Shown here: one piece after another, positions 6,709-22,541 of the stretch | How positions within the stretch are numbered: the stretch's first letter is position 1 | Layout of the letters: each line of letters opens with the position of its first letter | From: Streptomyces sp. QL37 | GTDB lineage: Bacteria; Actinomycetota; Actinomycetes; Streptomycetales; Streptomycetaceae | Reading direction: 5' to 3' | Assembly (NCBI RefSeq): GCF_002941025.1 | Contig: NZ_PTJS01000001.1 | Span: forward strand, 4,965,472 to 5,029,471 | DNA length: 64,000 nt | Notes under the pieces: model-generated | What the model saw: only the letters and a program-made list of their open reading frames with translations | Databases searched by the model: none | What the model was told of the DNA's origin: nothing | Translations under genes and position numbers: made by a program

Positions 6709-6969
6709 TCAGCGCATGGATTCCCACAGGGCGACGGCGAGCCCGGCGGCCGCGGTGAGCGCGCCGATGCTCGCCAGCGGCCAGCGGGAGCGTTCCAGTG
6801 TGTCGAGGCGGGCCTCGTGGTCCGCCAGTTGTTTGTCGGTCTGGTCGCTGCGCTGTACCAGCAGCGCCAGCTGGCCGTCGGCCCGGGCGAAGCCGGCCTC
6901 CAGCGAGCCGCGCAGGCGTTCCAGCTCCAGGGCGACGGCGACCGGGTTGTTCGGATCAGTCTCGGTCAC
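6709..6969 (-). CDS. small tail-anchored coiled-coil protein, lysis cassette
   Basis: 86 residues. Residues about 10-62 are charged and heptad-like (ELERLRGSLEAGFARAD...DHEARLDTLERS), followed by one hydrophobic segment (about 66-83, ASIGALTAAAGLAVALWE). The layout of a soluble coiled coil plus C-terminal membrane anchor resembles XhlA/antiholin-type partners beside phage endolysins. It is the last gene of the minus-strand tail cluster and overlaps the upstream holin-like gene by 14 bp, implying translational coupling. Its role as holin accessory or spanin-like factor is inferred from topology and position only. Confidence 0.7.
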   Translation of the reverse strand: MTETDPNNPVAVALELERLRGSLEAGFARADGQLALLVQRSDQTDKQLADHEARLDTLERSRWPLASIGALTAAAGLAVALWESMR

Positions 6970-7207
6970 GGGCGGCTCCCACGGTCTCGTTCCCGGGCGG
7001 TTCGGCGCGGAGCCAGGCCGGGAGAAGCGCCTGCACCCCGGGTACGGCCATCACCCGGGTCAGCGCCCCCGCGACGGCCAGGGCCCCGGCGACCCGGGGC
7101 AGGGCCGCCGGGAGCCCGGACGCGTCGACAAGCGCGGGCAGAAGCACGGCAAGGGCGAGGGCGGTCTGGACCACGGTGCGGGCGGTGCGACGGGTGGCAT
7201 CGGACAT
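6956..7207 (-). CDS. holin-like small membrane protein
   Basis: 83 residues with two hydrophobic segments (about 13-32, VQTALALAVLLPALVDASGL, and about 37-56) separated by a short turn, a positively charged N-terminus (TRRTAR) and a polar C-terminal tail. This is the class II holin layout. It lies 13 bases downstream of the amidase gene, as expected for a phage lysis cassette, where it would permeabilise the membrane and release the lytic enzyme. No sequence signature proves the assignment; it rests on topology and neighbourhood. Confidence 0.75.
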   Translation of the reverse strand: MSDATRRTARTVVQTALALAVLLPALVDASGLPAALPRVAGALAVAGALTRVMAVPGVQALLPAWLRAEPPGNETVGAARDRD

Positions 7208-7220
7208 GTCTGCGGGCTCC

Positions 7221-8138
7221 TCACTTCGTGTGCGGGACTTTGAGGGCGTTCCAGGAGGTGCGGCCCGGGACCCCGTCGGCGTCGCTGCCCCGGAAGCCGA
7301 GCTTGCGCTGCCAGGCGGCGTACGAGCGGCGGTCGGCCTCGGTCCAGCGGGGGCCCGGCCCGACGGCGTAGGACGAGCAGCCCTCGGCGACGAGCCGGCG
7401 GCCCATGGCGGTGATGACGGGGGAGCTGGTGCGGCCGGTGAAGAGCGAGGTGCCGGGGAACGGCTGGTAGCGGGGGGCGGACGTCCCGCCGGACGGTCTG
7501 CCCGCGGAACCGCCGCTCGCCGGGCCGCTCAGCCGTGTGGTGACACGTTCCCGCAGCGACGGCATGGTGAAGCCGCGCGGGTCGACCTTCCAGTCGGACC
7601 ACTCCAGGTGGCCGATCACGCTGCGGGCGGTCCAGCCGTGGGCCCGGCAGATGGCGGCGGAGACCCGTTCGATCGCGTCGAGCTGGGCGGCCGGCCAGGG
7701 GTCCTCGCCGTCACCGAGGTTGACGCACTCGAATCCGTAGAAGCGGGCGTTGCCGTCGACGGAGCCGGCGCTGCTGTCGTGTTCGCGGGGGGCGGGCGGG
7801 CGGTCGCCGTAGTCCTCCGCGATCACCCGCTGGAGTACGGCCGGGTCGCCGCCGCCCGCGTGGTTGGCGCGGCCGTTGCCGACGAGGTGGACGGTGCCCG
7901 CCTTGTCGATGACGCCGTGGCAGAGCGGGCCCGGCAGGGACGAGTGGCCGTCGTAGCAGAGCGCCACGGACGCGTCCGTGCCGCTGCTGACGGTGTGGTG
8001 GATCATGACGCCGTTCAGCGGGCCCCAGGCGCCCTTGTGGTTGCGGTTGTGGGTGCGCCAGTCCGCGTACTCGACGACGGTGACGCCTTCGGCGTGCAGT
8101 GCGGCGAGCAGCTGGTCGGCGGTCAGGGGAGTGGCCAT
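7221..8138 (-). CDS. N-acetylmuramoyl-L-alanine amidase (endolysin)
   Basis: 305 residues from the ATG at 8138, which is preceded by AAAGGA at 8-base spacing; a longer in-frame start upstream has no such site. The N-terminal half is an Amidase_2/PGRP-type domain: zinc-ligand region MIHHTV, then CHGVIDKAGTVHLVGNG, GFECVNLG and VIGHLEWS, matching the family's His/His/Asp-containing motifs. A Gly/Ser/Pro linker leads to a C-terminal peptidoglycan-binding-like domain (WQRKLGFRGSDADGVPGRTSW). There is no signal peptide, so export would depend on the neighbouring holin. It cleaves the amide bond between muramic acid and the stem peptide. Confidence 0.9.
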   Translation of the reverse strand: MATPLTADQLLAALHAEGVTVVEYADWRTHNRNHKGAWGPLNGVMIHHTVSSGTDASVALCYDGHSSLPGPLCHGVIDKAGTVHLVGNGRANHAGGGDPAVLQRVIAEDYGDRPPAPREHDSSAGSVDGNARFYGFECVNLGDGEDPWPAAQLDAIERVSAAICRAHGWTARSVIGHLEWSDWKVDPRGFTMPSLRERVTTRLSGPASGGSAGRPSGGTSAPRYQPFPGTSLFTGRTSSPVITAMGRRLVAEGCSSYAVGPGPRWTEADRRSYAAWQRKLGFRGSDADGVPGRTSWNALKVPHTK

Positions 8139-8177
8139 GGAGGTGTTCCTTTCGGTGCTGCGCACGGGGTGCGGCAG

Positions 8178-8207
8178 GGGGCCCCGCACCGGGTGGTGCG
8201 GGGCCCC
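8178..8207 (-). terminator. strong hairpin between fibre gene and lysis cassette
   Basis: A perfect 13-bp GC-rich inverted repeat (arms 8178-8190 and 8195-8207, 4-nt loop) sits between the fibre gene stop and the amidase start. On the minus strand it could reduce read-through from structural genes into the lysis genes. No U-tract is visible, so efficiency is uncertain. Confidence 0.65.
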
Positions 8208-8220
8208 TCGCAGGGGTGCG

Positions 8221-9678
8221 TCAGGAGAGAGCCGCCCAGATCGCGTTGGAGTCCGCGACCACCTTGTCGAGGGCGAAGGAGGTGGGCAGCGAGGTCTGGC
8301 CGGTGGTGCTGAGCCGGCCGTGGCGGATGAACTTGCCCGGCATCCGGGCGCTGCCGCCCGGCGCCTCGCCCACGTGGGCGCCCCGCGAGAAGGCGGGACC
8401 GTTGCTGCTGGGGCTGGGCCCGTTGACGACGAGCCCGATCCAGTAGTTGCCCGCCTTGGCGCTGTACGGGACGGTCAGCGGGCAGACCACGGTCGTGCCC
8501 TCGGTCTTGGGGATCAGGGTGGTGAGGTTGGCGGTCAGCCCGACCCGGGCACCGGCACCGGTGTAGAGCCCGGCGAACGAGGAGGTGCTGAGCGTGCCGC
8601 CGACGTAGCCGGGGACGTAGAACACCAGGTTGGTCACGGTGGCGGGCGCGTGCAGCGGGATGCCGATCAGGTACACCCAGCCGTTGATGCAGTACTGGGG
8701 GGTGGGTGCGGAGGCCGCCGCCGGGTCGAACGCCCAGCCGCTGAAGCCCATCGAGGAAGGGGACCAGGTGCCCGCCGCCGAGACCGCGTCCACGTAGGCG
8801 CGCCGGGTCAGGTGGTCGTCGGTGGACGGGGCGGCCGCGGTCGAGGGCGGAGTGACGAACGTCTTGGCGCCCTGGATCTCCTGGGCTCCCGCGAGCAGGA
8901 CCCCTTCGCCGACCGGCACCGCCGCCACGTCGGAGGCCGCCAGGGCGACCTCGCCGGTGAGGCCGTTGACCGAGGTCACGGGGGCGCCGCCGAGTGCCAG
9001 ATAGCGGGCGTCGCCCGCCGCCTGGGTCAGCGCGCCCAGGTCGTTCGCGGTGAGCAGGACCTCGCCGGTCTGCCCGTTGACGGAGGCGACGGCTCCGCCG
9101 CCCGCCGGGAGCTGGGCGGCCGGGACCAGACCGTCGGCGCCGAGGGTGGCGACCCCGCCCGGCGCTCCCGCCGAAGCGGAGGCGAGGGCCGAGACGTCCG
9201 CCGCGCCCAGCACGATGTCGGCCTCGGTGTGCCCGTTGACGGAGTGCACCGCGCCGGCCGGTCCGGCCGGGCCCTGCGGGCCGGGTCCTCCGGCGGGTCC
9301 CGGCGGCCCCGGTACGGCCACGTACTGCGGGGTGCCCGGATCGGCCGGGGCGATGTCGGCGAGGTCCACGGCGGGCACGGCCGCGGCCAGCGCCACCTGG
9401 TAGGTGCGTCCGCCGCGGGCGAGCCCGGCGAGCTTCTCCGTGACGGTGTACGTCCACGCGCCGGGGTTCCACCCCGGGGCGTCGGTGGCGGGCAGGACCA
9501 CGCTGATCCTGCCCTCCGCGTCGAGCGTGGTCCGGGTCGGGCCGCCCAGGAAGAGGTCCTCCTCCGCGTGGGTGAGGAGCGCCGGGGGCCGGAATTCGAC
9601 GGTGCCGCTCATCGGGCGGCCGTCGGGGGTCATGTAGCGGGCGGTGACGGTGACGGTGGGGATGTTCTCAGGCAGCAC
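8221..9678 (-). CDS. tail fibre / receptor-binding protein with collagen-like stretch
   Basis: 485 residues. An N-terminal beta-rich domain (about 1-115) would attach to the tail tip. It is followed by a short collagen-like run (PGPPGPAGGPGPQGPAGPAG, about 123-142) and three copies of a fibre repeat of the form SVNGxTGEVxLxAxDVxAL (about 145, 196 and 234). A KTFVTPPSTAAAPSTDDHLTR segment typical of phage fibre junctions leads to a unique C-terminal domain of about 180 residues, the likely cell-surface binding head. Repeats of this type form trimeric shafts in phage fibres. It is the last structural gene before the lysis cassette. Confidence 0.85.
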   Translation of the reverse strand: MLPENIPTVTVTARYMTPDGRPMSGTVEFRPPALLTHAEEDLFLGGPTRTTLDAEGRISVVLPATDAPGWNPGAWTYTVTEKLAGLARGGRTYQVALAAAVPAVDLADIAPADPGTPQYVAVPGPPGPAGGPGPQGPAGPAGAVHSVNGHTEADIVLGAADVSALASASAGAPGGVATLGADGLVPAAQLPAGGGAVASVNGQTGEVLLTANDLGALTQAAGDARYLALGGAPVTSVNGLTGEVALAASDVAAVPVGEGVLLAGAQEIQGAKTFVTPPSTAAAPSTDDHLTRRAYVDAVSAAGTWSPSSMGFSGWAFDPAAASAPTPQYCINGWVYLIGIPLHAPATVTNLVFYVPGYVGGTLSTSSFAGLYTGAGARVGLTANLTTLIPKTEGTTVVCPLTVPYSAKAGNYWIGLVVNGPSPSSNGPAFSRGAHVGEAPGGSARMPGKFIRHGRLSTTGQTSLPTSFALDKVVADSNAIWAALS

Positions 9679-9729: not shown

Positions 9730-10446
9730 TCAGGACTGGACGCCGTACAGGGCGAGCGGGCGGCAGCGCAGGGTGTCGCCGGCGGCCGCGACCCTGGCCT
9801 GGATCTCGAAGGTGACCGTGGCGCCGAAGGCGGCGGGCAGCCGCTCGGTGAACACCAGGCCGTCGCCGGGCGCGCCCACCCCCGCGAGCTGGACGCCGTC
9901 GACGAGCAGCCGCACCTCGGCGCCCGTACTGCCCTCGGCGGCGACCGCGCAGTGCAGACGCGGGTGCTGGACGATGCCAGGGCCCCGGTAGAGCGTCGTC
10001 CAGGCCGTCGAGCCGGTGGACTCCCAGCGCGCGGCGTCGGCGGGGGCGGGCAGCGGGTACGGGATGTAGGGGCGGGCCAGGCCTCCGTGGGCGGCGTCGT
10101 CGGCGACGACCACGTTGCCCCGGCGGTCGAAGACCTGCACCGGCTGGACGGGCAGGGTGTCCGGGGCCGCCGTCCAGATGGTCAGGGCGAGGGAGCCGTC
10201 GTCACGGCGTACGACGAAGCCCTGCTGCGGGTCGTCCTTGCCGCGGTCGGGCTGGACGCGGCCCAGGTAGAGCAGGTCCTCGTCGCCCGAGGTGCGGACG
10301 CGCAGCCGGCCCTTGTCGCCGATGACGACCTCTCCGCCCATGATCTGGTTCAGTGCGGGCGTGGTGTTGGCACTGCCCATGAGATCCCTGACCTGGCGTT
10401 CCAGTGCGCGGATACGGTCGAGCAGATCGGTGGGGATGATCGCCAC
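9730..10446 (-). CDS. putative tail-tip / baseplate protein
   Basis: 238 residues, not matched to a named family. It starts with a short amphipathic coiled coil (DLLDRIRALERQVRDLMGSA, about 7-26), followed by beta-rich sequence with GGEVVIGDKGRLRVRT and FVVRRDDGSLALTIW, and a compact C-terminal domain. The short trimerisation-like helix followed by beta sequence suggests a fibre-like or tip component. It sits 3 bases after the hub-like gene and before the main fibre gene, inside the tail operon. Function is inferred from position. Confidence 0.65.
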   Translation of the reverse strand: MAIIPTDLLDRIRALERQVRDLMGSANTTPALNQIMGGEVVIGDKGRLRVRTSGDEDLLYLGRVQPDRGKDDPQQGFVVRRDDGSLALTIWTAAPDTLPVQPVQVFDRRGNVVVADDAAHGGLARPYIPYPLPAPADAARWESTGSTAWTTLYRGPGIVQHPRLHCAVAAEGSTGAEVRLLVDGVQLAGVGAPGDGLVFTERLPAAFGATVTFEIQARVAAAGDTLRCRPLALYGVQS

Positions 10447-10449
10447 GGG

Positions 10450-11556
10450 TCACGCTCCTTCCAGGTAGAGGACGGCGGTCTCGGCCTTGGTGCGCTGCGG
10501 CGGGGTGACGGCGATGCCGACGATCCGGTAGGCGGCGTCGAGACCCTCGTGGTGCCACAGGTCGTGGATCCGGAGCCGGATGCGGGCACCGAGGAGGGCC
10601 GGGGTGATCTGCCCGTCCAGCAGCACGGTCAGCTCCGGGATGACCTCGGGGCGGCTCTGCCGGGCCAGTTCGGCGCGGGCCAGCGAACGCAGGGTCGCCT
10701 CGTCCGTGACGCCGCTGTGGTCGGAGGTGAGCTCCAGGCGGGGCCAGCCGGCCTCCAGGTCGCCGGGGGACTCCTCGCTGACGGTGAGCGGCTGGGACTC
10801 CTGGGACTGGTCGGTGTTGTCGGAGTCGCCCCGCGCCACCCAGACGTTCGCCTGCACGGTGGAGTCCGTCGGCAGGCTGTAGGTGAGGACCTGGCCGGGA
10901 TGGTTCAGGACGATGTCCGTGTGGCCCGTGCGGATCTGCGGGTGGCCGAGCTGGAGACGCTTGACCCGGCGGCCTTCGGCGTCGCGGTAGCAGTGGATGC
11001 GCCACTCGAACCCGTCGCTCAACTGGCCCAGGTTGTCGATCAGTTCGCGGACGCGGGCGAGTGCGGAGTAGGAGTAGGCGTAGTCCCGGACCACCCCGGA
11101 CCGGTCGTGGCCGGGAACGATGCCGATGTCACCGCCGGCCTGTTCCTGCGCGTGGTTGATCAGGGCGCGGGCGATGTCGAACTGATCCGTGCCCGTGCCC
11201 GCCAGACCGTCGGCGAGGATGCGGTGGTCCAGGTACGAGTCGAACGTGCCGGCCTGGAACTGCACCATGATCCGGCCCTGTTCGTCGGAGACCGGGGTGC
11301 AGGTCCACAGGATCCCGCCCCACCAGATGTCGCCGTCACGCTCCAGCCAGACCGCGGTACGGCCGGGCTGGAGGGCGGCCCGAGCCCGGGCGGCGAGTGC
11401 GCCTCCGGGCAGGGGGACGTTGGCGGTGAGCGACCCCGGCTTGCCTATGTAGTCGTCGAACTTGGTCTCCGTGAGCGGCAGCACGTCCAGCAGGCGGTCG
11501 GTGCGCAGGTCGCAGAAGAGCGCCCGGTAGACGGGCGTGGTGACGGATGCGGTCAT
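10450..11556 (-). CDS. tail hub-like protein (siphovirus Gp37/Tal-like)
   Basis: 368 residues from ATG at 11556; the open frame runs further upstream but only as antisense overlap with the previous gene. The start (YRALFCDLRTDRLLDVLPLT) and the pattern of a short beta domain, WLERDGDIWWGGILWT, and a helical insert resemble the Siphovirus ReqiPepy6 Gp37-like family of tail-tip proteins. Located immediately downstream of Dit and the 399-residue fibre-like gene, it is the best candidate for the tail hub that closes the tube and contacts the tape measure. Family assignment is from memory of the pattern and not certain. Confidence 0.7.
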   Translation of the reverse strand: MTASVTTPVYRALFCDLRTDRLLDVLPLTETKFDDYIGKPGSLTANVPLPGGALAARARAALQPGRTAVWLERDGDIWWGGILWTCTPVSDEQGRIMVQFQAGTFDSYLDHRILADGLAGTGTDQFDIARALINHAQEQAGGDIGIVPGHDRSGVVRDYAYSYSALARVRELIDNLGQLSDGFEWRIHCYRDAEGRRVKRLQLGHPQIRTGHTDIVLNHPGQVLTYSLPTDSTVQANVWVARGDSDNTDQSQESQPLTVSEESPGDLEAGWPRLELTSDHSGVTDEATLRSLARAELARQSRPEVIPELTVLLDGQITPALLGARIRLRIHDLWHHEGLDAAYRIVGIAVTPPQRTKAETAVLYLEGA

Positions 11557-11564: not shown

Positions 11565-12764
11565 TCACACGAGCGGGTCGACGCGGATGAAACGGTTGTC
11601 GTACCAGCCGTTGTTGTTGGTCGCGGACGAGCAGTAGGCGGAGACCGCGGTGTAGACCGCGCCCGCCTGGAGCCCCGTGACGCGGAACGTGGTCGAGACC
11701 GACGTCAGCGCCTTGGACGAGACGATCGCGGAGCGGACCTCGTGCGCGTCGACGACCAGGGCGCCGTCCTTGCGGATGGTGGCGCCCATCCGGGACCACT
11801 GGCCGTCCACCCCGGTGTTGCCCATGAAGCCGACGGTCACCAGGACCGCGCCCGTCACCGGCACCGTGAAGGTCGCGACGACCGTGGGGCCGTTCGTGTC
11901 GGCCACCGCCTCGACCCAGGAGGTGGTGGCGCAGTAGCCCCCGTCGGTCTGGATCGCGTATGCCGAGGACGGGACGGCCGGCCGCCAGACGGTGCCGTCC
12001 CAGCGCTGGAGCCGCCCGGCCTCGTCGCGGTACTGACCGGTGTACTCACCCGAGGCGAGTGCCCCCTGCGGGGCGATGCCGCCGGTCTGGCGGGGGTAGG
12101 TCGCCCAGCGGGTGCCGTCCCAGCGCTGGAGGGTGCTGGAGGTGTCGCGGTACTGGCCCGGGTATCCGCCGGGCGTCTCACGGTTCCACGAGTCGGCGAG
12201 GATGCCGCCGACGGCGACCGTCGACACCCGCAGGTCGTACAGGGCGCTCGCCCAGGGGATGCCGCCGGTGCCCACCGAGGCGCCGGCGGGCACGGTGACC
12301 CGGGCGAGCGGCAGGGAGGCCTCCGGGGCCTGCGGCGGCTGGGGGGTGGGCTCCGCCTTGCCCACGACGACCTCCAGGGCGGCCTCCGTGACGCCCTCGC
12401 CGTCGGCCTGGGCGTCGCGCACGCGCAGGACCACCAGGTCGATGCGCGGGTTGGAGGCGTCCCCGTCCTCGAAGGTCACCTCGGTGTAGTCGGTGAGGAC
12501 GACCGGGTAGGCGCCGGCCGACTCGCGGCCCTGGATCACCGCGCGGCCCGGCGAGACGGTGGCCTTCATTCCGGCGTTCTCGCCGAAGACGTAGAGGGCC
12601 GACATCAGGTACTCGCCGTCGGTGGAGCCCGGGATCACCCCGCTGGTGGTGGTCAGCGCCCCGCTCGGGGCCATGGTGCCGATGGGGGAGAGCCGGGTGT
12701 CCGCCCGGGACTGACCGGTCTGGGTCTCGGTGCGGTTGATCAGCCAGGCGCTGCGTACGGGCAT
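11565..12764 (-). CDS. fibre-like baseplate protein with duplicated QYRD/RWDG motif
   Basis: 399 residues. The N-terminal about 200 residues (SAWLINRTETQTGQSRADTR, then a GMKATVSPGRAVIQG motif) resemble tip-attachment domains of phage baseplate proteins. Two 20-residue repeats follow, each with GQYRD and LQRWDGT (encoded about 12111-12170 and 11991-12050, exactly 120 bp apart), which look like small carbohydrate- or surface-binding modules. A C-terminal beta-sandwich-like domain of about 120 residues ends in NGWYDNRFIRVDPLV. It could be a second receptor-binding component alongside the collagen-containing fibre. Confidence 0.7.
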   Translation of the reverse strand: MPVRSAWLINRTETQTGQSRADTRLSPIGTMAPSGALTTTSGVIPGSTDGEYLMSALYVFGENAGMKATVSPGRAVIQGRESAGAYPVVLTDYTEVTFEDGDASNPRIDLVVLRVRDAQADGEGVTEAALEVVVGKAEPTPQPPQAPEASLPLARVTVPAGASVGTGGIPWASALYDLRVSTVAVGGILADSWNRETPGGYPGQYRDTSSTLQRWDGTRWATYPRQTGGIAPQGALASGEYTGQYRDEAGRLQRWDGTVWRPAVPSSAYAIQTDGGYCATTSWVEAVADTNGPTVVATFTVPVTGAVLVTVGFMGNTGVDGQWSRMGATIRKDGALVVDAHEVRSAIVSSKALTSVSTTFRVTGLQAGAVYTAVSAYCSSATNNNGWYDNRFIRVDPLV

Positions 12765-12813: not shown

Positions 12814-13758
12814 TCACCAGTGGGCGTCGCGCCAGCGCAGGGTGGCGGAGGCCCGGGCGTCGGGGGTGGCGTCGTCGGAGCGGAAGGCCAGCTCGGTGCT
12901 GCCCGGCGGCAGGTGGAACAGCTGCTCGGGGGCTGAGGAGGGAGACGCGGTGTAGAGCCGGGAGGCGGTGGAGTTGAGGAGCACCGTGCCGGACTCGGTG
13001 TCGACGGTCAGGACGTCCTGGGGGCCGAGCACGATGTCGTACTGGAGCTGCCGGCCGTCGCCGAGCCGGGTCAGCGTCGGGCGCCGGAGCGGCCCCCGGA
13101 ACTCGATCACCGGGTGGGCCGCCGCCGTGCCCTCGTTGACGGCGGTGCAGGTGCCGGACGCACCGGACGCGCCCCACTCCAGCGGCCACTCGAGCCCCAT
13201 CCCGGCGACTCCGGGCTCGGCCGGCCAGTCCAGGCCCGGCTCGCTGAGAGGCAGCGAGGCCCGCGCCTCCCGGAGGACGGCTCCGAACCGGCGCGGATCG
13301 GTGGCGGTCCACTGGAGGCTGGTCCTGGACGCGCCGTGCACCACGAAGGACCGGTCCTGCGGCACGACGCGGCGGCTGACCCTGGCGCGTACGGCCAGCG
13401 TCTCGCCGTGCAGGCGCACGGCCAGCCACTGCTCGCTCCCGTCGGCGCCGGTGGCGGCGCGGAACGCGGAAAGGACGTCGGGAGCCTGTTCGGCCGTCCG
13501 GGGCAGCAGCCAGACGGACGCGCCGACGAGGCGGGGCTGCGCCCAGCGGGCGCCGGGCCAGGCGCCGTGCTGGTCGGGGCGGACGATGTCGCCCGTGTCG
13601 AGCACCGGCAGGTCGTCCCAGCCGGTGATCCCGGTGCGGTCGATCTCGTACGGCGTACCGGGGCCCATCAGCAGTCCGGCCCACTGGATCTGCCCGTCGC
13701 GGGTGATCAGTGAGCCGGGTGCGGTCTCCTGGGGATATGTGGTTGTGGTCTCGGCCAT
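12814..13758 (-). CDS. distal tail (Dit-like) protein
   Basis: 314 residues. The N-terminus (DGQIQWAGLLMGPGTPYEID, about 21-40) with the following WDDLPVLDTGD and Arg/Asp-rich loop is characteristic of the siphovirus tail component family that includes SPP1 Dit, which forms the hexameric ring linking tail tube to baseplate. The C-terminal domain is a galectin-like beta-sandwich candidate. It lies directly after the tape-measure genes, the canonical Dit position in siphophage tail operons. Confidence 0.8.
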   Translation of the reverse strand: MAETTTTYPQETAPGSLITRDGQIQWAGLLMGPGTPYEIDRTGITGWDDLPVLDTGDIVRPDQHGAWPGARWAQPRLVGASVWLLPRTAEQAPDVLSAFRAATGADGSEQWLAVRLHGETLAVRARVSRRVVPQDRSFVVHGASRTSLQWTATDPRRFGAVLREARASLPLSEPGLDWPAEPGVAGMGLEWPLEWGASGASGTCTAVNEGTAAAHPVIEFRGPLRRPTLTRLGDGRQLQYDIVLGPQDVLTVDTESGTVLLNSTASRLYTASPSSAPEQLFHLPPGSTELAFRSDDATPDARASATLRWRDAHW

Positions 13759-16330: not shown

Positions 16331-17146
16331 TCAGACGGTCCTGGCGAGATCGGCTGCGGCCCCGTTCGCGTCCCGCAGTCCTGCCGCGGCGCGTCGGCTC
16401 TCATCGTTCGTGCGGCGCAGTGAGTCCTGGAGGCGTCGTTGCTGCTCAGGGTCCGGATCGGCCGCCCGAGCTGGTGTCGCCCGGCCTCGCCCGGGCCGGG
16501 GCTCCGGTGAGGGAGGAGCGGTTCGCCGACGCCCGGGGGCGGGCTGTCCGGCCGGGCGTGCTGGATCGGCGGGTGTGGGTTGTCCGGCCGGGCGTGCTGG
16601 ATCGGCGGGTGTGGGCTGTCCGGCCGGGCGTGCTGGATCGGCGGGTGTGGGCTGTCCGTCGCCCGGGTCCTCCGTGGTGGCAGGCCTGCGGGTCGGAAGC
16701 AGGAACCCGTACTCGTTTCGCGCGATGTGAAATCCGCGCCCTTCTGCATTCGGGAAGAGGTTTATGTTTCCGAGCAGCTTCTCGGTGAATATCTCGAGGT
16801 TGAACAGCGTGGGAACCTCAAACTTCAACGCCTGCCAGGCGACTGCGATGCCCACGAGTTCGGTCGGCTTGATGCCGGTCCAGGTGCTGGACGCCGTTGC
16901 TTCCTGAAGCTCCTGTTGTGTAGCCAGGTCCTGCTGGTCCGGTTTGGCCGGAGATGTGGCTGCCTCGCCGGAGTCGGCTGCCTGGCCCGCCGTGACCGCA
17001 TCGTCCGGTCCGTCGATCAGAGCCTTCGGTCTGACGTCCGATCGTTTGAGGAGGCCCTCGACGGTGGAGTTGTCGGCCTTCTTGTCGAGGTCCTCCCTGA
17101 TTGCCGCGATGTCTTCGGCGAGCTTTGCATTTGTGGGTTCTGCCAT
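16331..17146 (-). CDS. unknown tail-operon protein with Pro/Ala repeat linker
   Basis: 271 residues, no family recognised. N-terminal coiled coil (AEDIAAIREDLDKKADNS, about 10-27), a conserved-looking middle (TGIKPTELVGIAVAWQALKF and NEYGFLLPTRR, about 89-150), then a Pro/Ala-rich linker containing three perfect copies of a 12-residue repeat (QPTPADPARPAG), and a C-terminal helix (QQRRLQDSLRRTNDESRRAA). It lies between the chaperone region and the first tape-measure-like gene. The final helix resembles tape-measure N-terminal segments, so it could be a split tape-measure part or a tape-measure partner; this is inference. The linker is encoded by a DNA tandem repeat and may vary in length. Confidence 0.75.
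   Translation of the reverse strand: MAEPTNAKLAEDIAAIREDLDKKADNSTVEGLLKRSDVRPKALIDGPDDAVTAGQAADSGEAATSPAKPDQQDLATQQELQEATASSTWTGIKPTELVGIAVAWQALKFEVPTLFNLEIFTEKLLGNINLFPNAEGRGFHIARNEYGFLLPTRRPATTEDPGDGQPTPADPARPAGQPTPADPARPAGQPTPADPARPAGQPAPGRRRTAPPSPEPRPGRGRATPARAADPDPEQQRRLQDSLRRTNDESRRAAAGLRDANGAAADLARTV
16541..16648. repeat. 3 x 36-bp tandem repeat, in frame
   Basis: Three direct copies of a 36-bp unit (16541-16576, 16577-16612, 16613-16648) that differ at a single base, followed by a partial fourth. The unit is a multiple of three and encodes a 12-residue Pro/Ala-rich segment of the minus-strand gene at 16331-17146. There is no spacer between copies. Confidence 0.95.
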
Positions 17147-17223
17147 AACCTCTCAACCACCTTGATCAGGGTGTGGTGTGATGTGGTCCATCGCTGTCCG
17201 CACTGTCCTCGAAGGAGCTGCAC

Positions 17224-17610
17224 GTGGACTCGGATGTCCTGCTTCTCATACCGCCCCTTTTTGGCCTTGTCGCCATCATCTGGATAACCCGGCGGCGGTT
17301 GCTGGTGCGGGCGCGAGGTGTCGAGGCGGAGGCGCGCTGTTACGAACGTGAGTGGCGCACCCAGGGGGGCGGCCCCACGTTTCTTCTCAGCTTTTCCCTG
17401 CGGGACGGCGGCCGGATGACCTGTTCCGCGGGTGAGGGCGATGTGCCGGCCGGCACCCAGGTCGGTGACACCGTGACGGTCCTCTACGACCCGCAGGCGC
17501 CCGGTCGGGTGGAGACAGCCATCGCTGCCCGCAAACCTCTGTGGAAGCGCGTGGATCTGATCACGCTCACCCTGGTCGAGGCCGCTCTCCTTGTCGTCGC
17601 CCTCAGGTGA
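17224..17610 (+). CDS. DUF3592-like membrane protein, copy a
   Basis: 128 residues from GTG at 17224, with AAGGAG 8 bases upstream. One N-terminal membrane segment (about 5-20), a cytoplasm- or exterior-facing beta domain with RRLLVRARGVEAEARCYE and VGDTVTVLYDPQAPGRVE, and a C-terminal membrane segment (about 112-127). The VGDTVTVLYDPxxP motif is typical of DUF3592 proteins, whose function is unknown. It is on the strand opposite to the surrounding tail operon, like a phage moron or cargo gene, and converges on the decayed chaperone fragment 26 bp downstream. Confidence 0.75.
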   Translation: MDSDVLLLIPPLFGLVAIIWITRRRLLVRARGVEAEARCYEREWRTQGGGPTFLLSFSLRDGGRMTCSAGEGDVPAGTQVGDTVTVLYDPQAPGRVETAIAARKPLWKRVDLITLTLVEAALLVVALR

Positions 17611-17635
17611 GGCGCAGCCGTGAGGAGGGCCCGGC

Positions 17636-17897
17636 TCAGGCGAAGAAGCGCATGAGCTCCGGCCCGATCGGGTCCGCTCGGTGGGTCGGTCTCCTCGTCG
17701 CCCGGGTCCGAGTCCCCCCGGCCTGGGAACCGGCACCGGCGGCTCCGGCGGACCGGAGTCCTCGTCCGTGTTGACGGAGGCGAACATCCAGTTGGTGGCG
17801 ACGAGATGATCCACGGCCGCGGGCCGGCCGGGCGGTCCACACCGTGGCGCCGCGGCAGGCCGGCTTCGAGAGCGGCGTGTTCCTCGGTGACCACGAC
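17636..17897 (-). pseudogene. decayed duplicate of the tail chaperone T segment
   Basis: The minus strand repeats, in pieces and in different frames, the C-terminal part of the chaperone at 18416-18816: EEHAALEAG in one frame, NWMFASVNTDEDSGPPEPPV in a second, and PELMRFFA with the same TGA stop in a third. About 130 bp matching 18615-18745 are missing. With frameshifts and the deletion it cannot make the original product. The similarity continues past the stop into the 3' flank of the neighbouring DUF3592-like gene, so the duplication was of a DNA block, not of one gene. Confidence 0.8.
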
Positions 17898-17983
17898 GAG
17901 GCCCAGCCTCCCGGGTTCACCCCTGCGCGGCTGCCGGTGGCTTCGGCGAGTTCCTTTTGTGTCTTCGCGTCGAGAGGTTCTCC

Positions 17984-18385
17984 GTGCTCGCGGTGAGAAT
18001 ACTTCTCATTCTCATGACCTGTGCCACGTCTCTTGTTCTGGCCACCAATCTCTACGCCTTGCGCAAGGCGCGGCGGCTCGAATCCACCGGTGTGCGGGTG
18101 GAGGGTGAATGCGTGAACCACTACTGGCCCAGCGGCGGCTATGTAGGTGCAATCTGTACATATCCCGCGGGGGGCGCGGAGGACCTGTCGGTCCGCTCCT
18201 CGCGGTATTCCGTCGCACCCGTGGACATAGGTGACGTCGTAGAGGTCATCCACGACCGGAAGAACCCGGAGCACTCGATGCTGTCGTTCGAAGTCGGCAG
18301 CAGGGTGGGCTACGACACCGCGCTGACGGTTGTCATGGGGACGCTGTGGGCGGCCGCCGCCGTCGGGGCCGTTCTCACCTGGTGA
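17984..18385 (+). CDS. DUF3592-like membrane protein, copy b
   Basis: 133 residues from GTG at 17984, chosen because GAGAGG lies 6 bases upstream; an in-frame TTG at 17957 lacks such a site. Topology matches copy a: N-terminal membrane segment (about 4-24), a domain with RRLESTGVRVEGECV and DIGDVVEVIHDRKNPE, and a C-terminal membrane segment (about 112-131). Sequence identity to copy a is low, but topology, domain order and position relative to a chaperone 3' end are the same. It points toward the intact chaperone gene, ending 30 bp from its stop. Confidence 0.7.
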   Translation: MLAVRILLILMTCATSLVLATNLYALRKARRLESTGVRVEGECVNHYWPSGGYVGAICTYPAGGAEDLSVRSSRYSVAPVDIGDVVEVIHDRKNPEHSMLSFEVGSRVGYDTALTVVMGTLWAAAAVGAVLTW

Positions 18386-18415: not shown

Positions 18416-19110
18416 TCAGACGAAGAAGCGCATGAGTTCCGCGCGTGAGGGCCCTCCGGGCGGCGGGGAGTCCTCCAGGGGCGGTTCCGCCGGCCCGTCG
18501 TCGTCACCCGGCCTGGGAACCGGCACCGGCGGCTCCGGCGGATCGGAGTCCTCGTCCGTGTTGACGGAGGCGAACATCCAGTTGGCGGCGGCGAGATGGT
18601 CCACGGCGGCGGCCAGGAGGTAGTCCGTCACCGTCCATTCGGCACCGTCACCGTGGAGCTCCTGCGCTACGGCGCTGTCGCGTGGCATGTGCTTGACCAG
18701 CACCGCGAGCCGGCGTGAGGACAGCCGGCCGCGGTACCAGTCGAGCAGGTCCACGCCGTAGTGCCGCAGCAGGTCGGCTTCCAGTGCCTCGGCGTGTTCT
18801 TCGGCGAACGCGTCGAGGCTCAGCCTTCCCCCAGGCCGAGCCCGGTCTCCTTGCCGTACGCCTCCAGGATCGCGGCGATGTCCTGCATGGTGATGTCGTG
18901 CCGCTCGAAGCGCGCGAACTGCTCCTCGCCCAGCAGGAGCTTCAGCAGGCCGTCGACGTCGTTGTCGTCGAGGCCGCGGAGCGCCTTGGCGGTGGTGCGG
19001 CCGAGTTCGGTGGGCAGTTCGAAGGTGTCGTCGTCCAGGTCGAAGGACCAGGAGCGGCCGAGCGCCTCCATGCGCTGGGCGCGGGCCGCGTTGACGTCGA
19101 ATGAAGCCAT
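18416..19110 (-). CDS. tail assembly chaperone GT, -1 frameshift product
   Basis: Reading 94 residues of the G frame, then shifting -1 at GGGGGAA (18826-18832), gives a 231-residue protein. The T part reads on as GRLSLDAFAEEHAEALEADL, then LRHYGVDLLDWYRGRLSSRR and MPRDSAVAQEL, a pattern I recognise from actinophage tail chaperone fusions, and ends in a Pro/Asp-rich tail and AELMRFFV. The T frame overlaps the G frame without its own ribosome-binding site. As in lambda gpG/gpGT, the two products would bind the tape measure and recruit major tail protein during tube assembly. The slip site is not the classic X-XXY-YYZ, so slippage of the single GGG-decoding tRNA is inferred. Confidence 0.8.
18820..19110 (-). 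CDS. tail assembly chaperone G
   Basis: 96 residues, acidic, mostly helical: FDLDDDTFELPTELGRTTAK (about 24-43), then DVDGLLKLLLGEEQFARFER and a C-terminus KETGLGLGEG. It has the size, acidity and position (right after the major tail protein, before the tape measure) of siphophage gpG-type chaperones. It ends at TGA 18820-18822, two codons beyond the putative slip site, and is the non-shifted product of the same start as GT. A perfect 15-bp hairpin separates it from the major tail protein gene. Confidence 0.8.
   Translation of the reverse strand: MASFDVNAARAQRMEALGRSWSFDLDDDTFELPTELGRTTAKALRGLDDNDVDGLLKLLLGEEQFARFERHDITMQDIAAILEAYGKETGLGLGEG
18826..18832 (-). promoter_or_regulatory. candidate -1 ribosomal frameshift site
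   Basis: GGGGGAA on the minus strand, read CTG-GGG-GAA in the G frame. Glycine tRNA on GGG can re-pair perfectly one base back, after which the frame runs without stop to 18416. The total length after a -1 shift is a whole number of codons. Confidence 0.7.
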
Positions 19111-19190: not shown

Positions 19191-19793
19191 TCAGGCCTCG
19201 GCCGGCACCGCGTAGGCGGCGTCCTTCATGACGAAGGTCGCGAGTGCCTGGCCGTCGCCCGGGGAGAGCGCGGTGAAGGTGACGCCGAGCATCGCGGCTG
19301 CCTTGCGGGCCAGCTTGATGTCGTCGGTGGCCGTCACCTGGCCGCGCGGGATGACGAAGCGGTAGGTGACCGCCGAACCGTCGGTGAACTCCAGGCCGAG
19401 CGCGCGCTCGTCGAAGGTCGGGCCGTCCGGCACGTCGAACTGGACGATGTCCGAATTGGCCGAGCCCCGGCGGATGTCACTCCCGGAGCCGCCCAGGAAG
19501 AAGGGCAGCGTGTCCTCGTTGAACTGCAGCATCGAGAACTTCAGCGTCAGGTCGCGGTCCGCGTAGACGAACCGGGCCGGGCTGATCGACTGCCACGTCT
19601 CGACCGGGTCCAGCTTGTCCTTCTTGGAGAAGGTCACCCCGTCCGTGGAGGTGTAGCCGAGGTCGGTCCACTCCGAGCCCCAGTCGGCCGCCGGTGTGTC
19701 GGAGAACGCTTCCGGGAGAGGGGCGTTGAGGTTCCCGACCAGAATGCGGCCGGTACCGGCCACGCGGATCTCGGACGAGTTGTTGCCTGCCAT
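19191..19793 (-). CDS. major tail (tube) protein
   Basis: 200 residues from ATG at 19793, preceded by GGAGT at 5 bases. The sequence begins MAGNNSSEIRVAGTGRILVG, has SEWTDLGYTSTDGVTFSKKD (about 42-61), a beta-rich core, and YRFVIPRGQVTATDDIKLAR (about 145-164), then a short Ala/Phe-rich end. The LGYTSTDGVTFS pattern is typical of actinobacteriophage and related siphovirus major tail proteins. It would polymerise into the tail tube. Hairpins on both sides of the gene suggest that its mRNA is made or kept at a level different from its neighbours. There is no sheath gene, so the tail is non-contractile. Confidence 0.88.
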   Translation of the reverse strand: MAGNNSSEIRVAGTGRILVGNLNAPLPEAFSDTPAADWGSEWTDLGYTSTDGVTFSKKDKLDPVETWQSISPARFVYADRDLTLKFSMLQFNEDTLPFFLGGSGSDIRRGSANSDIVQFDVPDGPTFDERALGLEFTDGSAVTYRFVIPRGQVTATDDIKLARKAAAMLGVTFTALSPGDGQALATFVMKDAAYAVPAEA

Positions 19794-19912: not shown

Positions 19913-20323
19913 TCAGCCGATACGCAGGGAGACCCGCAGCACGGTGAGGTAGCGGTTGGCCGCCGGGTACAGGTACTCGGGCAGCCAGCGCGGGCCGTCG
20001 GCCTCGACCACGTCGGTGATCACGACGTTCGTCCCGTACGTCCGGCCGACCGCCGAGAGCAGCTCGGCGCGGGCGGAGTTCGCGAGGCGGTGCGCCGTCG
20101 CCTTGTCCGGGCCGTAGGCCTCCAGTTCGATGAGCGGCTGGTCGAGGTGGAGGTCGTCGATCCAGGCGCCGCCGCGCCGGGAGACGATCACCGCCTGCTG
20201 GGTGCCGTCGAAGCCCGGGGGCGGGGTCTCGTCCACGACCGCCTCCGCGAGGTCCGGGCGGTCGGAGAGGAGCTCCACGACGATGGCCTCCACGTCGGGG
20301 AAGGTGCTCGGGGGTGAACTCAT
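19913..20323 (-). CDS. tail terminator / completion protein
   Basis: 136 residues. Pattern: N-terminal helix PDVEAIVVELLSDRPDLAEA, then a beta strand AVIVSRRGGA, a basic/acidic alternation (DDLHLDQPLIELEAYGPDKA) and helix HRLANSARAELLSAVGRT. This fits small alpha/beta tail-terminator proteins that cap the tube at its head-proximal end (lambda gpU-like position). It is the first gene of the structural operon. An AGGAG lies 12 bases before the ATG. No head-tail connector gene precedes it, consistent with a tail that is capped and never joined to a capsid. Confidence 0.75.
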   Translation of the reverse strand: MSSPPSTFPDVEAIVVELLSDRPDLAEAVVDETPPPGFDGTQQAVIVSRRGGAWIDDLHLDQPLIELEAYGPDKATAHRLANSARAELLSAVGRTYGTNVVITDVVEADGPRWLPEYLYPAANRYLTVLRVSLRIG

Positions 20324-20450: not shown

Positions 20451-20460
20451 GTGCGCGCAA
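20451..20460. promoter_or_regulatory. shared GTGCGCGCAA motif, site 1
   Basis: The 10-mer occurs in the divergent region between the tail operon start (20323) and the plus-strand gene at 20620, and again at 22049-22058. On the minus strand it reads TTGCGCGCAC and could also act as a -35-like element (17 bases to CACAAT). Candidate binding site for the nearby helix-turn-helix regulator. Confidence 0.4.
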
Positions 20461-20538
20461 CCACTTAGTGCGGAGTGGCAACTTCAAGGGGTGCGCAACT
20501 CCCGCATATGACGGGCCGGGTGCGTTAGTCTGCGGCTA

Positions 20539-20554
20539 TCGAACATGCATTCGA
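20539..20554. promoter_or_regulatory. candidate LexA (SOS) box 1
   Basis: TCGAACATGCATTCGA matches the actinobacterial LexA consensus TCGAAC-N4-GTTCGA at 11 of 12 positions. It lies in the 296-bp divergent region, 65 bp before the plus-strand gene at 20620 and 215 bp before the tail operon start. A TAGTCT -10-like hexamer lies just upstream at 20526-20531. Confidence 0.65.
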
Positions 20555-20619
20555 GAGGTGGCGGTTCTGAAGCACGGAGCGCCGTTACTGGGCGTGCGGA
20601 ACAAGGAAGTGGAACAGGT

Positions 20620-20880
20620 GTGGACGGGAGCGCGATGGTGATCAGTGCCCAGGAGCGGCTGGCCGATGTCATGGCCGCCGTGGTCGAGGTGGCCGCGGAG
20701 TCAGGGGAAGCGGGCACGTACACCGCTGACGTCGCCAGGACGCTCACCGCTGTCGTCGGCAAGGTGGGGGCGAGAATCGCCGTGGAGGCGGAGACGCGGG
20801 GGTTCCGCAGCGGCTGGGGTGAGGCGGTCGCGCTGACCACCGGGGGCAAGGACGAGGGTGCCCAGGTGTTCCGGATGTAG
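20620..20880 (+). CDS. small unknown helical protein downstream of SOS-like box
   Basis: 86 residues from GTG at 20620 (AAGGAAG about 10 bases upstream); ATG at 20635 is an alternative. No family recognised. Predicted helical: AQERLADVMAAVVEVAAESG, then DVARTLTAVVGKVGARIAVE, ending GWGEAVALTTGGKDEGAQVF. It is divergent from the tail operon, shares its control region including LexA-like box 1, and converges on two small minus-strand genes across a 23-bp inverted repeat. Role unknown; regulator or self-protection factor are guesses. Confidence 0.6.
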   Translation: MDGSAMVISAQERLADVMAAVVEVAAESGEAGTYTADVARTLTAVVGKVGARIAVEAETRGFRSGWGEAVALTTGGKDEGAQVFRM

Positions 20881-20901
20881 CCGCGCGGGGTGCGGACGTG
20901 C

Positions 20902-20949
20902 CGACAGGGGGAGGGGCGGGCCCGCACGGGCCCGCCCCTCCCCCTGTCG
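20902..20949. terminator. bidirectional terminator, perfect 23-bp inverted repeat
   Basis: Arms 20902-20924 and 20927-20949 are perfect reverse complements. It lies between convergent genes ending at 20880 (plus) and 20960 (minus) and can stop transcription both ways. Confidence 0.85.
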
Positions 20950-20959
20950 CCGGTGCTCC

Positions 20960-21154
20960 TCAGCCGGCCGTACGCGCCTTCCGCCGGGCGGCGCGCTCCG
21001 CCGCGAAGACGTCCTCCAGCCGGAACAGCTGCGCCCGGCCCTGCTTCCCCGCGGGGGAGAGGCGGCCCAGCTGGACCCACTTGCGGATCGTCGCCGGGGT
21101 CACGCCGGCCTCGTCGGCGGCCAGTGCTCCCGTGATCAGGGTCGCCGCCGTCAT
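20960..21154 (-). CDS. small MerR/excisionase-like DNA-binding protein
   Basis: 64 residues from ATG at 21154. The motif AADEAGVTPATIRKWVQLGR (about 12-31) followed by LFRLEDVFAAERA is the winged helix-turn-helix pattern of MerR-like and excisionase-like proteins common in actinophages and integrative elements. The start overlaps the upstream gene's stop by 4 bp (ATGA), so both are cotranslated. No integrase is nearby, so it is more likely a regulator than a true excisionase. Confidence 0.75.
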   Translation of the reverse strand: MTAATLITGALAADEAGVTPATIRKWVQLGRLSPAGKQGRAQLFRLEDVFAAERAARRKARTAG

Positions 21155-21903
21155 CGGCGTACCTCCCGCTCCGCGGTGTCCGCCGTCGAGCCGGTCAGTT
21201 CCGTGAGGTCCCCGCCGGACTCCGCCGCCAGCCGCACCCAGGCGCCCTCGCTCCAGGCGTGCCGGTGGGCGGGGTCCGTGCGGCAGTCGCACTCCAGGTC
21301 GGCGCACCGGCAGGCCGGGTTGACGCACAGCACCGCCCGCCGCGCCGGGAAGGCGCGCAGGGAGACCGAGTCGCACCAGGGGCAGCGGCCGCGGACCCGT
21401 ACGACCGGCTCGGCGGCGCCCAGGACGCGCGTGCAGCGCCTCGCCATCCGGCGGACCTCGTCCCGGATGTGAACCGTGAGCAGGGCGTCCCCGGCCGCCT
21501 GTCCGAGCAGTGAGGCGATGCGGAGCAGTCGCTCGGCCACCTGGGCGCGGCGGGGGCGTGGCAGGCGGAGCCTGTCGTGCACGGCCTCGTCGAGCTCCAC
21601 CACGCCGTCGGTGATGTCGCGGATGGCGTCGGAGACGTGCAGCCGCAAGGGGGCGGTGGTGGGCCCGGACGGCGTCAGGCCGTGCAGCTGTTCGGCCCGC
21701 AGGGCCTCCTCGCGTTCGGCCCGGGAACGGCCACGCGGGGCCGGCGGCCCCGCGCTGTCCGACGACGGCGGTGCGGAGGGGGAGCGGTGGGCCGGCGCCA
21801 GCTCGCCGAGCAGCTCGGGGAACTGCTTCAGCAGCAGTTCGATCCAGAGCACGGCGTCACGGGCGGTCTTCTCGGTCTTCTCGTTGTCGGCGCGTGTGGT
21901 CAT
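21151..21903 (-). CDS. unknown protein with Cys-rich zinc-ribbon-like C-terminal part
   Basis: 250 residues from ATG at 21903, with AAGGGA about 6 bases upstream. N-terminus helical (RDAVLWIELLLKQFPELLGE, about 16-35), a Pro/Ser linker, a helical middle (LHVSDAIRDITDGVVELDEA), then CPWCDS...CVNPACRC...CDC (about 184-215), which looks like one or two zinc-binding clusters. It heads a two-gene unit with the small HTH protein and is divergent from the XRE-type regulator at 22101 across a region holding LexA-like box 2. No function assigned. Confidence 0.7.
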   Translation of the reverse strand: MTTRADNEKTEKTARDAVLWIELLLKQFPELLGELAPAHRSPSAPPSSDSAGPPAPRGRSRAEREEALRAEQLHGLTPSGPTTAPLRLHVSDAIRDITDGVVELDEAVHDRLRLPRPRRAQVAERLLRIASLLGQAAGDALLTVHIRDEVRRMARRCTRVLGAAEPVVRVRGRCPWCDSVSLRAFPARRAVLCVNPACRCADLECDCRTDPAHRHAWSEGAWVRLAAESGGDLTELTGSTADTAEREVRR

Positions 21904-21936
21904 GGGTGGTCCCTTCTCCCCGGCACAACTTGTTGC

Positions 21937-21952
21937 GGGAACGCACGTTCGC
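21937..21952. promoter_or_regulatory. candidate LexA (SOS) box 2
   Basis: GGGAACGCACGTTCGC holds the perfect core GAAC-N4-GTTC and matches TCGAAC-N4-GTTCGA at 9 of 12 positions. It lies 34 bp upstream of the minus-strand gene at 21903 and 148 bp upstream of the plus-strand regulator. Weaker than box 1. Confidence 0.5.
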
Positions 21953-21955
21953 ATG

Positions 21956-21973
21956 TTGCGCGCTCGCTCGCAA
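21956..21973. promoter_or_regulatory. TTGCG...CGCAA palindrome-like site
   Basis: TTGCGCGCTCGCTCGCAA has matching ends (TTGCG and CGCAA) and contains the TTGCGCGC core found in the other two shared-motif sites. Possible operator of the regulator at 22101. Confidence 0.4.
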
Positions 21974-22048
21974 GGGCAATAGGGCGAAGCGGCCTGCCTT
22001 TATGTCAACCGAAACTTCACAAACGAGACGGTGCGAGCGGGTAATTCT

Positions 22049-22058
22049 GTGCGCGCAA
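22049..22058. promoter_or_regulatory. shared GTGCGCGCAA motif, site 2
   Basis: Exact second copy of the 10-mer at 20451-20460, here 42 bp upstream of the XRE-type regulator gene; autoregulation would place an operator here. Confidence 0.4.
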
Positions 22059-22100
22059 GCGCGATACGCTGATGGCCGCTTCGGAGGGAGGCGACCGCTC

Positions 22101-22541
22101 ATGACCACAGGCGAACTCGACCGCTTCGCGACCTGGATCGAAGAGCTGATCCGCCGGCGCGGCTTCGACATCGACAGCCCGCGCGGTGGCGGAAAATCCC
22201 GCCTCGCCGACGAGGCCGGAGTCCATCGGGCGGCCATCACGCGGCTGCTCCAGCGCCAGAGCATGCCCGACCTGGAGACCACGCGCCGACTGGCCCAGGT
22301 GCTCCAGGTCCCGGTGCGCGACATGCTCATCCAGTCCGGCCGCCTCACCGAGGAGGACCTGCCGCTGCCGTCGGTCGGCCAGGCCCCCGCGGGTGGCCGG
22401 CGCCTCACGCTGGAGGAGGCGGCGGACGGTCTCGGGGTCGCGGCGGACCAGCGCGAGATGTTCATCAGGATCGCGGGCCAGTTCCTGCCCTCGGAAGCCG
22501 TCAGGGCCTCCGGGAGCCGGACGCCGCTCGCCTCCGACTGA
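22101..22541 (+). CDS. XRE-type helix-turn-helix regulator
   Basis: 146 residues from ATG at 22101; GGAGGGAGG lies about 11 bases upstream. The helix-turn-helix spans about 31-60 (SRLADEAGVHRAAITRLLQR) and is followed by MPDLETTRRLAQVLQVPVRD, the standard XRE/Cro continuation. The C-terminal about 60 residues are of unknown role. It sits at the upstream edge of the tail cluster, divergent from its small regulatory genes, in the position of a prophage repressor or activator, and is the most likely owner of the shared GCGCGCAA-type sites. Confidence 0.85.
   Translation: MTTGELDRFATWIEELIRRRGFDIDSPRGGGKSRLADEAGVHRAAITRLLQRQSMPDLETTRRLAQVLQVPVRDMLIQSGRLTEEDLPLPSVGQAPAGGRRLTLEEAADGLGVAADQREMFIRIAGQFLPSEAVRASGSRTPLASD

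Follow-up and report, generated by a model that had tools for sequence, protein, structure and literature searches.

A tail-only, non-contractile phage-derived locus with a variable cassette between rpoC and rpsL of Streptomyces sp. QL37 as a candidate F-type tailocin

Organization of the tail locus

The window analysed here is a 64,000-nucleotide stretch of the genome of Streptomyces sp. QL37 (contig NZ_PTJS01000001.1, positions 4,965,472 to 5,029,471). It contains a block of phage tail genes on the minus strand, which runs from 20323 to 6709 and is flanked by rpoC (end at 6636) and rpsL (start at 23739), with an rpoC-rpsL gap of 17.1 kb. The original prediction, made from the letters of the window alone, described a tail-only particle locus at 6709..22541 between these two genes. 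The position is borne out and the extent only in part: the tail block ends at 20323, and 20545-22541 is a control block. Twenty locus proteins were scanned with PHROG and Pfam profiles (the reading 20545-20880 was left out), and the E-values reach 1.7e-139, which is far beyond chance.

The tail set is complete and follows phage order on the minus strand. It starts with the tail terminator protein gene (19913..20323; PHROG 123, 7.6e-23) and the tail tube gene (19191..19793; Phage_TTP_17 PF25681, 1e-62), followed by tail assembly chaperone G (18820..19110; PHROG 10551, 5e-27) and a frameshifted chaperone extension (18416..18754; PHROG 5813, 1.3e-20), the two frames being laid out as for a -1 frameshift. 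The tape measure of the original prediction is present as two tandem paralogues (30% over 430 aa), tmp1 (15084..16283; PHROG 3981, 4e-33) and tmp2 (13801..15087; PHROG 3981, 1.8e-36). Downstream are the distal tail protein (Dit; 12814..13758; PHROG 5577, 3e-92; SPP1_Dit PF22768, 2.5e-6), a baseplate/fibre protein (11565..12764; PHROG 3398 'virion structural protein', 7e-86) and a Tal-like tail hub (10450..11556; PHROG 1885 minor tail protein, 7e-93). Two fibre-region proteins come after the hub, a tail-tip accessory protein (9730..10446; PHROG 9849 of unknown function, 5.5e-89) and the tail fibre (8221..9678; PHROG 14726, 1.7e-139). The operon also includes the lysis genes: an endolysin with an amidase_2 domain (7221..8144; PF01510, 7e-22; PHROG 880 endolysin, 2e-75), a putative holin named from position and size (6956..7207; PHROG 4316 without assigned function, 8e-24) and a small coiled-coil membrane protein, cc86 (6709..6969; PHROG 5225 of unknown function, 1.5e-28). 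The predicted tail classes, amidase and holin-like gene are all found, and the tail genes do not stand alone: 16331-18385, between the chaperones and tmp1, is a cargo interval with a gene termed x (x271), two DUF3592-like genes and a duplicated 3´ fragment of a chaperone gene.

No capsid, portal, large terminase, protease, replication or integrase family was matched by the 20 scanned proteins, in agreement with the predicted absence of head, packaging, replication and integration genes from the block. Three labels required attention. The protein at 11565-12764 has matches to three PHROGs that bear the label 'head and packaging' (best 7e-86), a label that clashes with its place between Dit and hub; gp18 of the Streptomyces phage Darolandstone sits likewise, and the label was set aside, as was one weak 'head and packaging' match of the fibre protein. 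The MerR-like protein of the control block weakly matches terminase small subunits and excisionases (6.6e-5 to 0.095), families with a helix-turn-helix like its own; these matches were set aside too. Non-contractile, siphophage-type tail genes in phage order are what characterizes an F-type tailocin. A sheath family, as in contractile particles (extracellular contractile injection systems or R-type tailocins), is not among the matches of the 20 proteins, and the head and large terminase genes of a gene transfer agent are missing inside the locus; a separate prophage elsewhere in the genome has such genes.

Relation to Streptomyces phages

The window keeps the gene order of phage Darolandstone (Raleighvirus) from the tape measure through the lysis genes: tape measure, Dit, baseplate protein (gp18), hub (gp19), accessory protein (gp20), fibre (gp21), endolysin and two small lysis-region genes (gp23 and gp24). 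Identity is 39–61% in the matched parts, with 53% for the hub, 45% to the N-terminal part of gp21, 61% to gp23 and 46% to gp24; the tape measure reaches only 23%, and the baseplate and accessory proteins are paired with gp18 and gp20 by synteny. In contrast to the window, Darolandstone is a full phage with capsid and integrase, and its single tape measure directly follows the chaperone, without x or DUF3592; the window has an extra 2.1 kb ahead of its two tape measures. By blastp, the window tube and terminator show no relation to Darolandstone. The tube is about 31% identical to phage proteins among the matches listed, and all 332 records lie below 60%, which together indicates that the block is a mosaic. 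A DNA search with 7458 bases of the block found only pieces of 1–2% of the query in 14 phage records.

Distribution and insertion site

The tail-only locus is not unique to QL37. A tube search of 199 Streptomyces genomes gave matches in 54; 30 of the 199, QL37 included, hold a close homologue (best 30 loci, one each, E ≤ 7e-44). From a wider collection scan the best 80 of 146 loci were kept. After removal of identical tubes, 96 distinct loci with tube, second chaperone and tape measure formed the comparison set, including two distant ones (L060 and L061) in which head content was checked by four queries only. tmp2 was matched in 75 of 88 loci, a count that may include cross-matches between the paralogues.

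The rpoC-rpsL interval is a frequent site for this tail-only content in many species. rpoC or rpsL lies inside the fetched span in 65 of the 96 loci. A site survey used 20-kb pieces of 30 loci, 29 from other genomes and the decayed L062: rpoB, rpoC or rpsL is present in 15 and missing from 13, with L035 and L042 too short to tell. One of the 13, L054 (genome G172), is about 545 kb from rpsL. In 20 tube-less genomes, hand-chosen for a known rpsL place rather than at random, the rpoC-rpsL gap ranges from 448 to 8734 nt; it does not exceed 1.22 kb in 14 genomes and is 1.5–8.7 kb in the other six, one of which keeps only remnants of the locus (L153). Four head queries (the terminase-like protein, portal and capsid of the QL37 prophage and a Raleighvirus capsid) matched none of 116 fetched stretches, a search run without a positive control; core genes on both sides leave little room for a head module.

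Several variants of the site were seen. The gaps of 3.7–8.7 kb in L150, L156, L161 and L167 have no tail-gene matches and represent other insertions in the same place, and L047 and L051 carry the tail block in inverted orientation at the rpoC side. L053–L059 form a second tail-only group with neither rpoC nor rpsL in the piece, some beside dcd-like or FG-GAP-like genes (names given by reading the sequence). L102 (JOFO01000009), titled Microtetraspora glauca, carries a tail locus with Streptomyces-type rpsL, rpsG and fusA and is probably a mislabelled record.

Selection and intactness

The tail frames are intact in the window. Compared with five relatives, the ratio of nonsynonymous to synonymous substitution rates (dN/dS) of the tail genes is 0.09–0.57, with tmp2 and the baseplate protein at the upper end, and that of the lysis genes is 0.17–0.32 with one relative only; the aligned parts contain no stop codons. 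These values indicate that the tail genes are under purifying selection. Together with synteny in many species and a LexA-type box ahead of the operon, they agree with the original prediction of selection rather than decay. Frame disruption in most relatives would speak the other way. Broken or remnant copies were noticed in few loci (L062, L077, L132 and L153), and a stop was flagged in the tube match of G172 and another in L143; these cases weigh against the reading as a tailocin.

Head genes elsewhere in the genome

An HK97-type capsid gene is located at 2.47 Mb in the QL37 genome, about 2.5 Mb from the tail locus. The surrounding 40 kb (2452001-2492000; L146 and L147) contain portal, capsid, a terminase-like protein (weak, 6e-4), an amidase and, at the place of a tape measure, an 843-aa reading without Pfam match. 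As read from its sequence, the region is a separate and complete prophage with its own head and tail genes; its lysin resembles that of the tail locus. TerL PF03354 and the protease PF04586 have no match in the whole genome. Head genes elsewhere under joint control would have spoken against a tail-only system; joint control was checked by the box only, and the genome's other match to TCGAAYN4GTTCGA is not near the prophage.

Control block and LexA-type boxes

The control block (20545-22541) encodes a MerR-like small DNA-binding protein (20960..21154, minus strand; PHROG 2474, 2.8e-17 on the longer reading 20960-21376), a zinc-ribbon regulator-like protein, zn267 (21151..21903, minus strand; PHROG 1467 of unknown function, 6e-7), and a divergent XRE-family repressor (22101..22541, plus strand; HTH_3, 1e-7; PHROG 3949 repressor, 2e-15). 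zn267 and the repressor are each matched in 82 of the 96 loci. A perfect 23-nt inverted repeat at 20902..20949 is a likely terminator between convergent genes.

A LexA-type palindrome, TCGAATGCATGTTCGA, is located about 230 nt ahead of the terminator protein gene (20539..20554, minus strand). The pattern, TCGAAN5GTTCGA, recurs in 20 relatives at -199 to -367, and 19 of these copies are exact. When up to one mismatch is allowed in the 500 nt upstream of the terminator protein gene, this window-clade palindrome occurs in 21 of 99 loci (20 exact) versus 74 of 3512 background blocks. Exact LexA-type boxes also lie between xre and zn267 in eight of 86 loci, versus 1.6 expected, among them all seven of L053–L059. 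Across other groups of loci, the chaperone-tape measure interval has 27 exact GAACN4GTTC sites, 24 of which share their flank and belong to related loci. The GAACN4GTTC at 21939-21950 was considered as a general regulatory site and dropped, as close relatives lack it.

Some observations weaken the case for LexA control. The palindrome was first read off 12 aligned loci (seen in 11), which are themselves among the loci counted, and it is missing from the searched 500 nt in L075, L077, L078 and L081 of the window clade. One base of the window box, a T in place of C, departs from the LexA consensus. TCGAAYN4GTTCGA occurs twice in the QL37 genome, once at the locus, and a backward-read control pattern also occurs twice; the genome count therefore says nothing, and it is the conservation that does. 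The conserved box suggests DNA-damage control of the window locus.

A published 'predicted prophage cluster' of S. venezuelae bears on this point. According to the published work (PMC9380542), the LexA motif is tCGAAC-N4-GNNCGa, and a validated lexA box also varies at the sixth base. Within the cluster, the LexA target vnz_21525, a 'phage tail fiber protein', rises 526-fold in mitomycin C, and the LexA targets vnz_21545 and vnz_21550 rise 190-fold each (PMC9380542). Both published 14-mer SOS boxes occur exactly once each in L044 (genome G015), and no other compared locus has exact copies. The L044 Dit gene starts 184 nt after the first 14-mer, compared with 174 in the paper. In the L044 cargo interval, two divergent genes start 305 nt apart, exactly what the offsets of 123 and 182 in the paper add up to. 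Singly, these offsets misfit the printed 14-mer (200 and 105 nt in L044); they are within 8 nt of the distances (115 and 190 nt) to the conserved box TCGAACAGATGTTCC, which lies some 85 nt beyond. The L044 order of Dit, tmp2, tmp1, x, small gene and opposite-strand gene would fit 21525-21550 in steps of five, and the G015 block lies exactly between rpoC and rpsL. On this evidence, vnz_21525-21550 is very probably the same locus in S. venezuelae, where it is a LexA target strongly induced by mitomycin C (PMC9380542). Unlike its published designation as a prophage, the G015 stretch has no match to the four head queries. The L044 cassette differs from that of the window in lacking DUF3592.

A variable cassette ahead of the tape measures

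Beyond the original prediction, the locus holds, in addition to the SOS-type box, a variable cassette. The interval between the second chaperone and the tape measure is hypervariable, with a length of 0.8–6.9 kb across loci. In the window, x271 (16331..17146, minus strand), a variable coiled-coil protein without PHROG or Pfam match and a candidate payload, is adjoined by a DUF3592-like two-helix membrane protein (17224..17610, plus strand; PF12158, 4.6e-5, just under the cut-off), which is the candidate immunity gene beside x and the single PF12158 match in the 8.8-Mb genome. A second DUF3592-like gene, a candidate orphan immunity gene (17957..18385, plus strand), reaches PF12158 at 0.01 only and was not listed on a rescan at a limit of 0.01; it scores 95 bits with our own profile, of which it is itself a seed. 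Between the two lies the chaperone-gene fragment (17635..17822, minus strand), which aligns to the 3´ part of chapT across 199 columns with 79% DNA identity. Such duplication was rejected as a general scar of exchange, since it occurs in only four of the 96 loci.

Gene x adjoins tmp1. Its product has coiled coils at its ends; the middle is often hydrophobic or semi-hydrophobic, accompanied by a linker of proline- or collagen-like type. A reading was chosen by rule in 88 of the 96 loci; a few are in the wrong frame (at least L058, L095 and L137) and were kept in the tests if neighboured. The structure model of x (predicted local distance difference test, pLDDT, 56) is too poor for use. The DUF3592-like protein consists of a beta domain flanked by two terminal helices (model pLDDT 86), and its model has no match in the PDB at E ≤ 0.001. 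DUF3592-like genes are found in the interval of 42 of the 96 loci (41 by rule, L117 added by hand). In the 116 stretches, which are partly redundant, 65 of 68 hits fall inside the interval, 57 of them antisense. A broader profile, some rows of which derive from the loci concerned, gave 26 matches in 13 tail-bearing genomes picked for having DUF3592 (18 in the interval, three close to it and five elsewhere) and four in eight tail-less genomes; 150 of about 175–325 first-look candidates were scored per genome. A second family of 60–70 aa two-helix proteins occurs, also antisense, in eight loci; in seven of them x has a TGR motif and in the eighth x is a shortened relative, and two of the eight also have DUF3592. 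Searches of 50,697 phage records with two DUF3592 sequences and one x sequence found nothing.

By pair counts, x and its DUF3592-like neighbour are related together more often than in shuffles, although Mantel tests give no significant correlation. In five relatives with tail genes 65–99% identical to those of the window, the DUF3592 genes have no blast match in any and x has none in four, with a partial match (32%) in L069; in L066, tmp1 is 90% and chaperone G 97% identical, and both x and DUF3592 are without blast match. Thirty loci give 435 pairs, of which 34 are related in x, 48 in DUF3592 and 20 in both; for the last count the shuffle mean is 3.7 (p=0.0002). Where the tubes are less than 70% identical, seven of 15 x-related pairs are also DUF-related versus 1.65 in shuffles (p=0.0008), as in L045-L058 (x 40%, DUF 50%, tube 48%) and L055-L069 (x 44%, DUF 43%, tube 53%). 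A one-way count in a wider set finds a related DUF3592 in 42 of 128 x-related and 50 of 2482 other comparisons. These pair counts, with thresholds, were used after Mantel tests, most pairs having no detectable similarity in either gene. These tests carry one wrong assignment, that of the proximal DUF3592 in L077, where the relative of the window gene is in broken frames and went uncounted.

Placement, hypervariability, membrane nature and paired exchange raise the possibility that x, as a protein of the tail lumen, is an interchangeable membrane-acting warhead. The small membrane proteins, DUF3592-like or of at least one other family and mostly encoded on the opposite strand, would be its dedicated immunity, and arrays would retain orphan immunity genes, all within a locus that many Streptomyces share. 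We hold this reading tentatively, at somewhat less than even chances, because half of the loci lack either family, the x model is poor, the Mantel tests are not significant and linkage may suffice. More fully, several findings pull away from it. Neither family is present in 48 of the 96 loci; three more loci have cargo related to the TGR-type x without the second family, and DUF3592-like genes also exist away from the locus. A more hydrophobic x had been considered for loci with DUF3592, but x is less hydrophobic there, and the idea was rejected. Eighty-six of the 128 ordered x-related comparisons have no related DUF3592, and the similarities of x and DUF3592 in the 30 loci are not significantly correlated (Mantel r=0.08, p=0.075; partial Mantel 0.05, p=0.17). 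Linked genes can travel together without acting together.

Interpretation and alternatives

We consider it probable that the block is an operon domesticated from a siphophage tail, which would yield headless, non-contractile (F-type) particles after DNA damage, with a candidate toxin-immunity-like pair in its cassette. DNA damage would remove LexA from the box upstream of the terminator protein gene, a step supported by the published data for the probable S. venezuelae homologue, and the block of XRE, MerR-like and zinc-ribbon proteins may add further control. The tube, chaperones, two tape measures, Dit, hub and fibres, whose genes are present, would assemble a headless tail, which the holin-like protein and amidase would release by lysing the producing compartment. 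The fibres may then bind related Streptomyces, with the tape measures and x entering the envelope and permeabilizing the membrane; that the predicted particle kills bacteria is what we infer. Kin would be partly spared by the cassette membrane proteins, DUF3592-like or of the 60–70 aa family, which are separately transcribed, mostly from the opposite strand, beside x; the pairing assumed in this step is deduced from the exchange pattern.

The block could instead be an ordinary decaying prophage remnant in which tail genes were kept by chance, for which one might cite the broken copies and the separate prophage with a related lysin. Intact tail frames under purifying selection and the same tail-only content, often in the same site, in many species with conserved LexA-type boxes largely refute this, and we regard it as very unlikely. 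Still less credible is part of a split gene transfer agent, or a satellite that takes its heads from a phage resident in the genome. The prophage does offer a portal and a capsid; however, as read from its sequence it has its own long tape-measure-like gene and tail genes, neither of the two genome matches to TCGAAYN4GTTCGA lies in it, and the scanned proteins of the locus include no large terminase or connector besides the tail terminator.

A particle that serves its producer, in programmed lysis or development, rather than killing competitors is unlikely but deserves more weight. Contractile systems of S. coelicolor are said to be cytoplasmic and involved in cell death (PMC12237407, PMC10066040), and the QL37 lysis genes are inside the operon; against this, fibres, hub and amidase keep the phage arrangement, the fibre and tip genes differ between clades, which points to an outward target, and the exchangeable cassette fits strain competition. 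A real possibility, rated a little below even, is that x serves the tape measure as an accessory for assembly or tail length and DUF3592 is a phage-exclusion gene or other moron, unrelated cargo moving together by linkage. The coiled coils of x, its place directly before tmp1, the Mantel tests and the loci without both membrane families agree with this. What it explains less well is co-relatedness above shuffles even for distant tails, the ties of two unrelated membrane families each to its own x types, the lack of a match in both genes beside the closely related tail genes of L066, and the empty search of the phage records.

Returning to the F-type tailocin reading, F-pyocins of Pseudomonas aeruginosa and monocins of Listeria monocytogenes carry lysis genes and are under DNA-damage control. 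Like them (PMC12090994), the QL37 locus is a tail-only, siphophage-derived, headless operon, here known from its genes. It differs in being related to a Streptomyces siphophage tail, in its frequent place at rpoC-rpsL, in having its tape measure twice in tandem and in the variable cassette, which carries the candidate immunity genes. In pore-forming colicins, membrane immunity genes lie on the opposite strand. The candidate membrane immunity gene of QL37 is likewise on the opposite strand beside a putative membrane-acting protein, an analogy only, and delivery would be by a phage tail, unlike that of colicins. Among the matches listed, the titles and abstract openings of the open-licence PMC literature name no non-contractile Streptomyces tailocin. 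A search of this literature for DUF3592 together with immunity found no paper.

Tailocins are said to lack immunity genes, which such a cassette, if true, would overturn; it would also open to direct testing which components a non-contractile tail delivers into its target cell. Small-molecule antibiotics are the classic product of Streptomyces, and their means of competition would gain a further layer from a widespread protein weapon with SOS-type control. The strongly induced S. venezuelae 'prophage' would be recast as a tail locus.

Beside the loci, small proteins with the recurring motif RRE..AY..GW.DA were seen in the window (22714-23457), in L036, L037 and L040, and in others.

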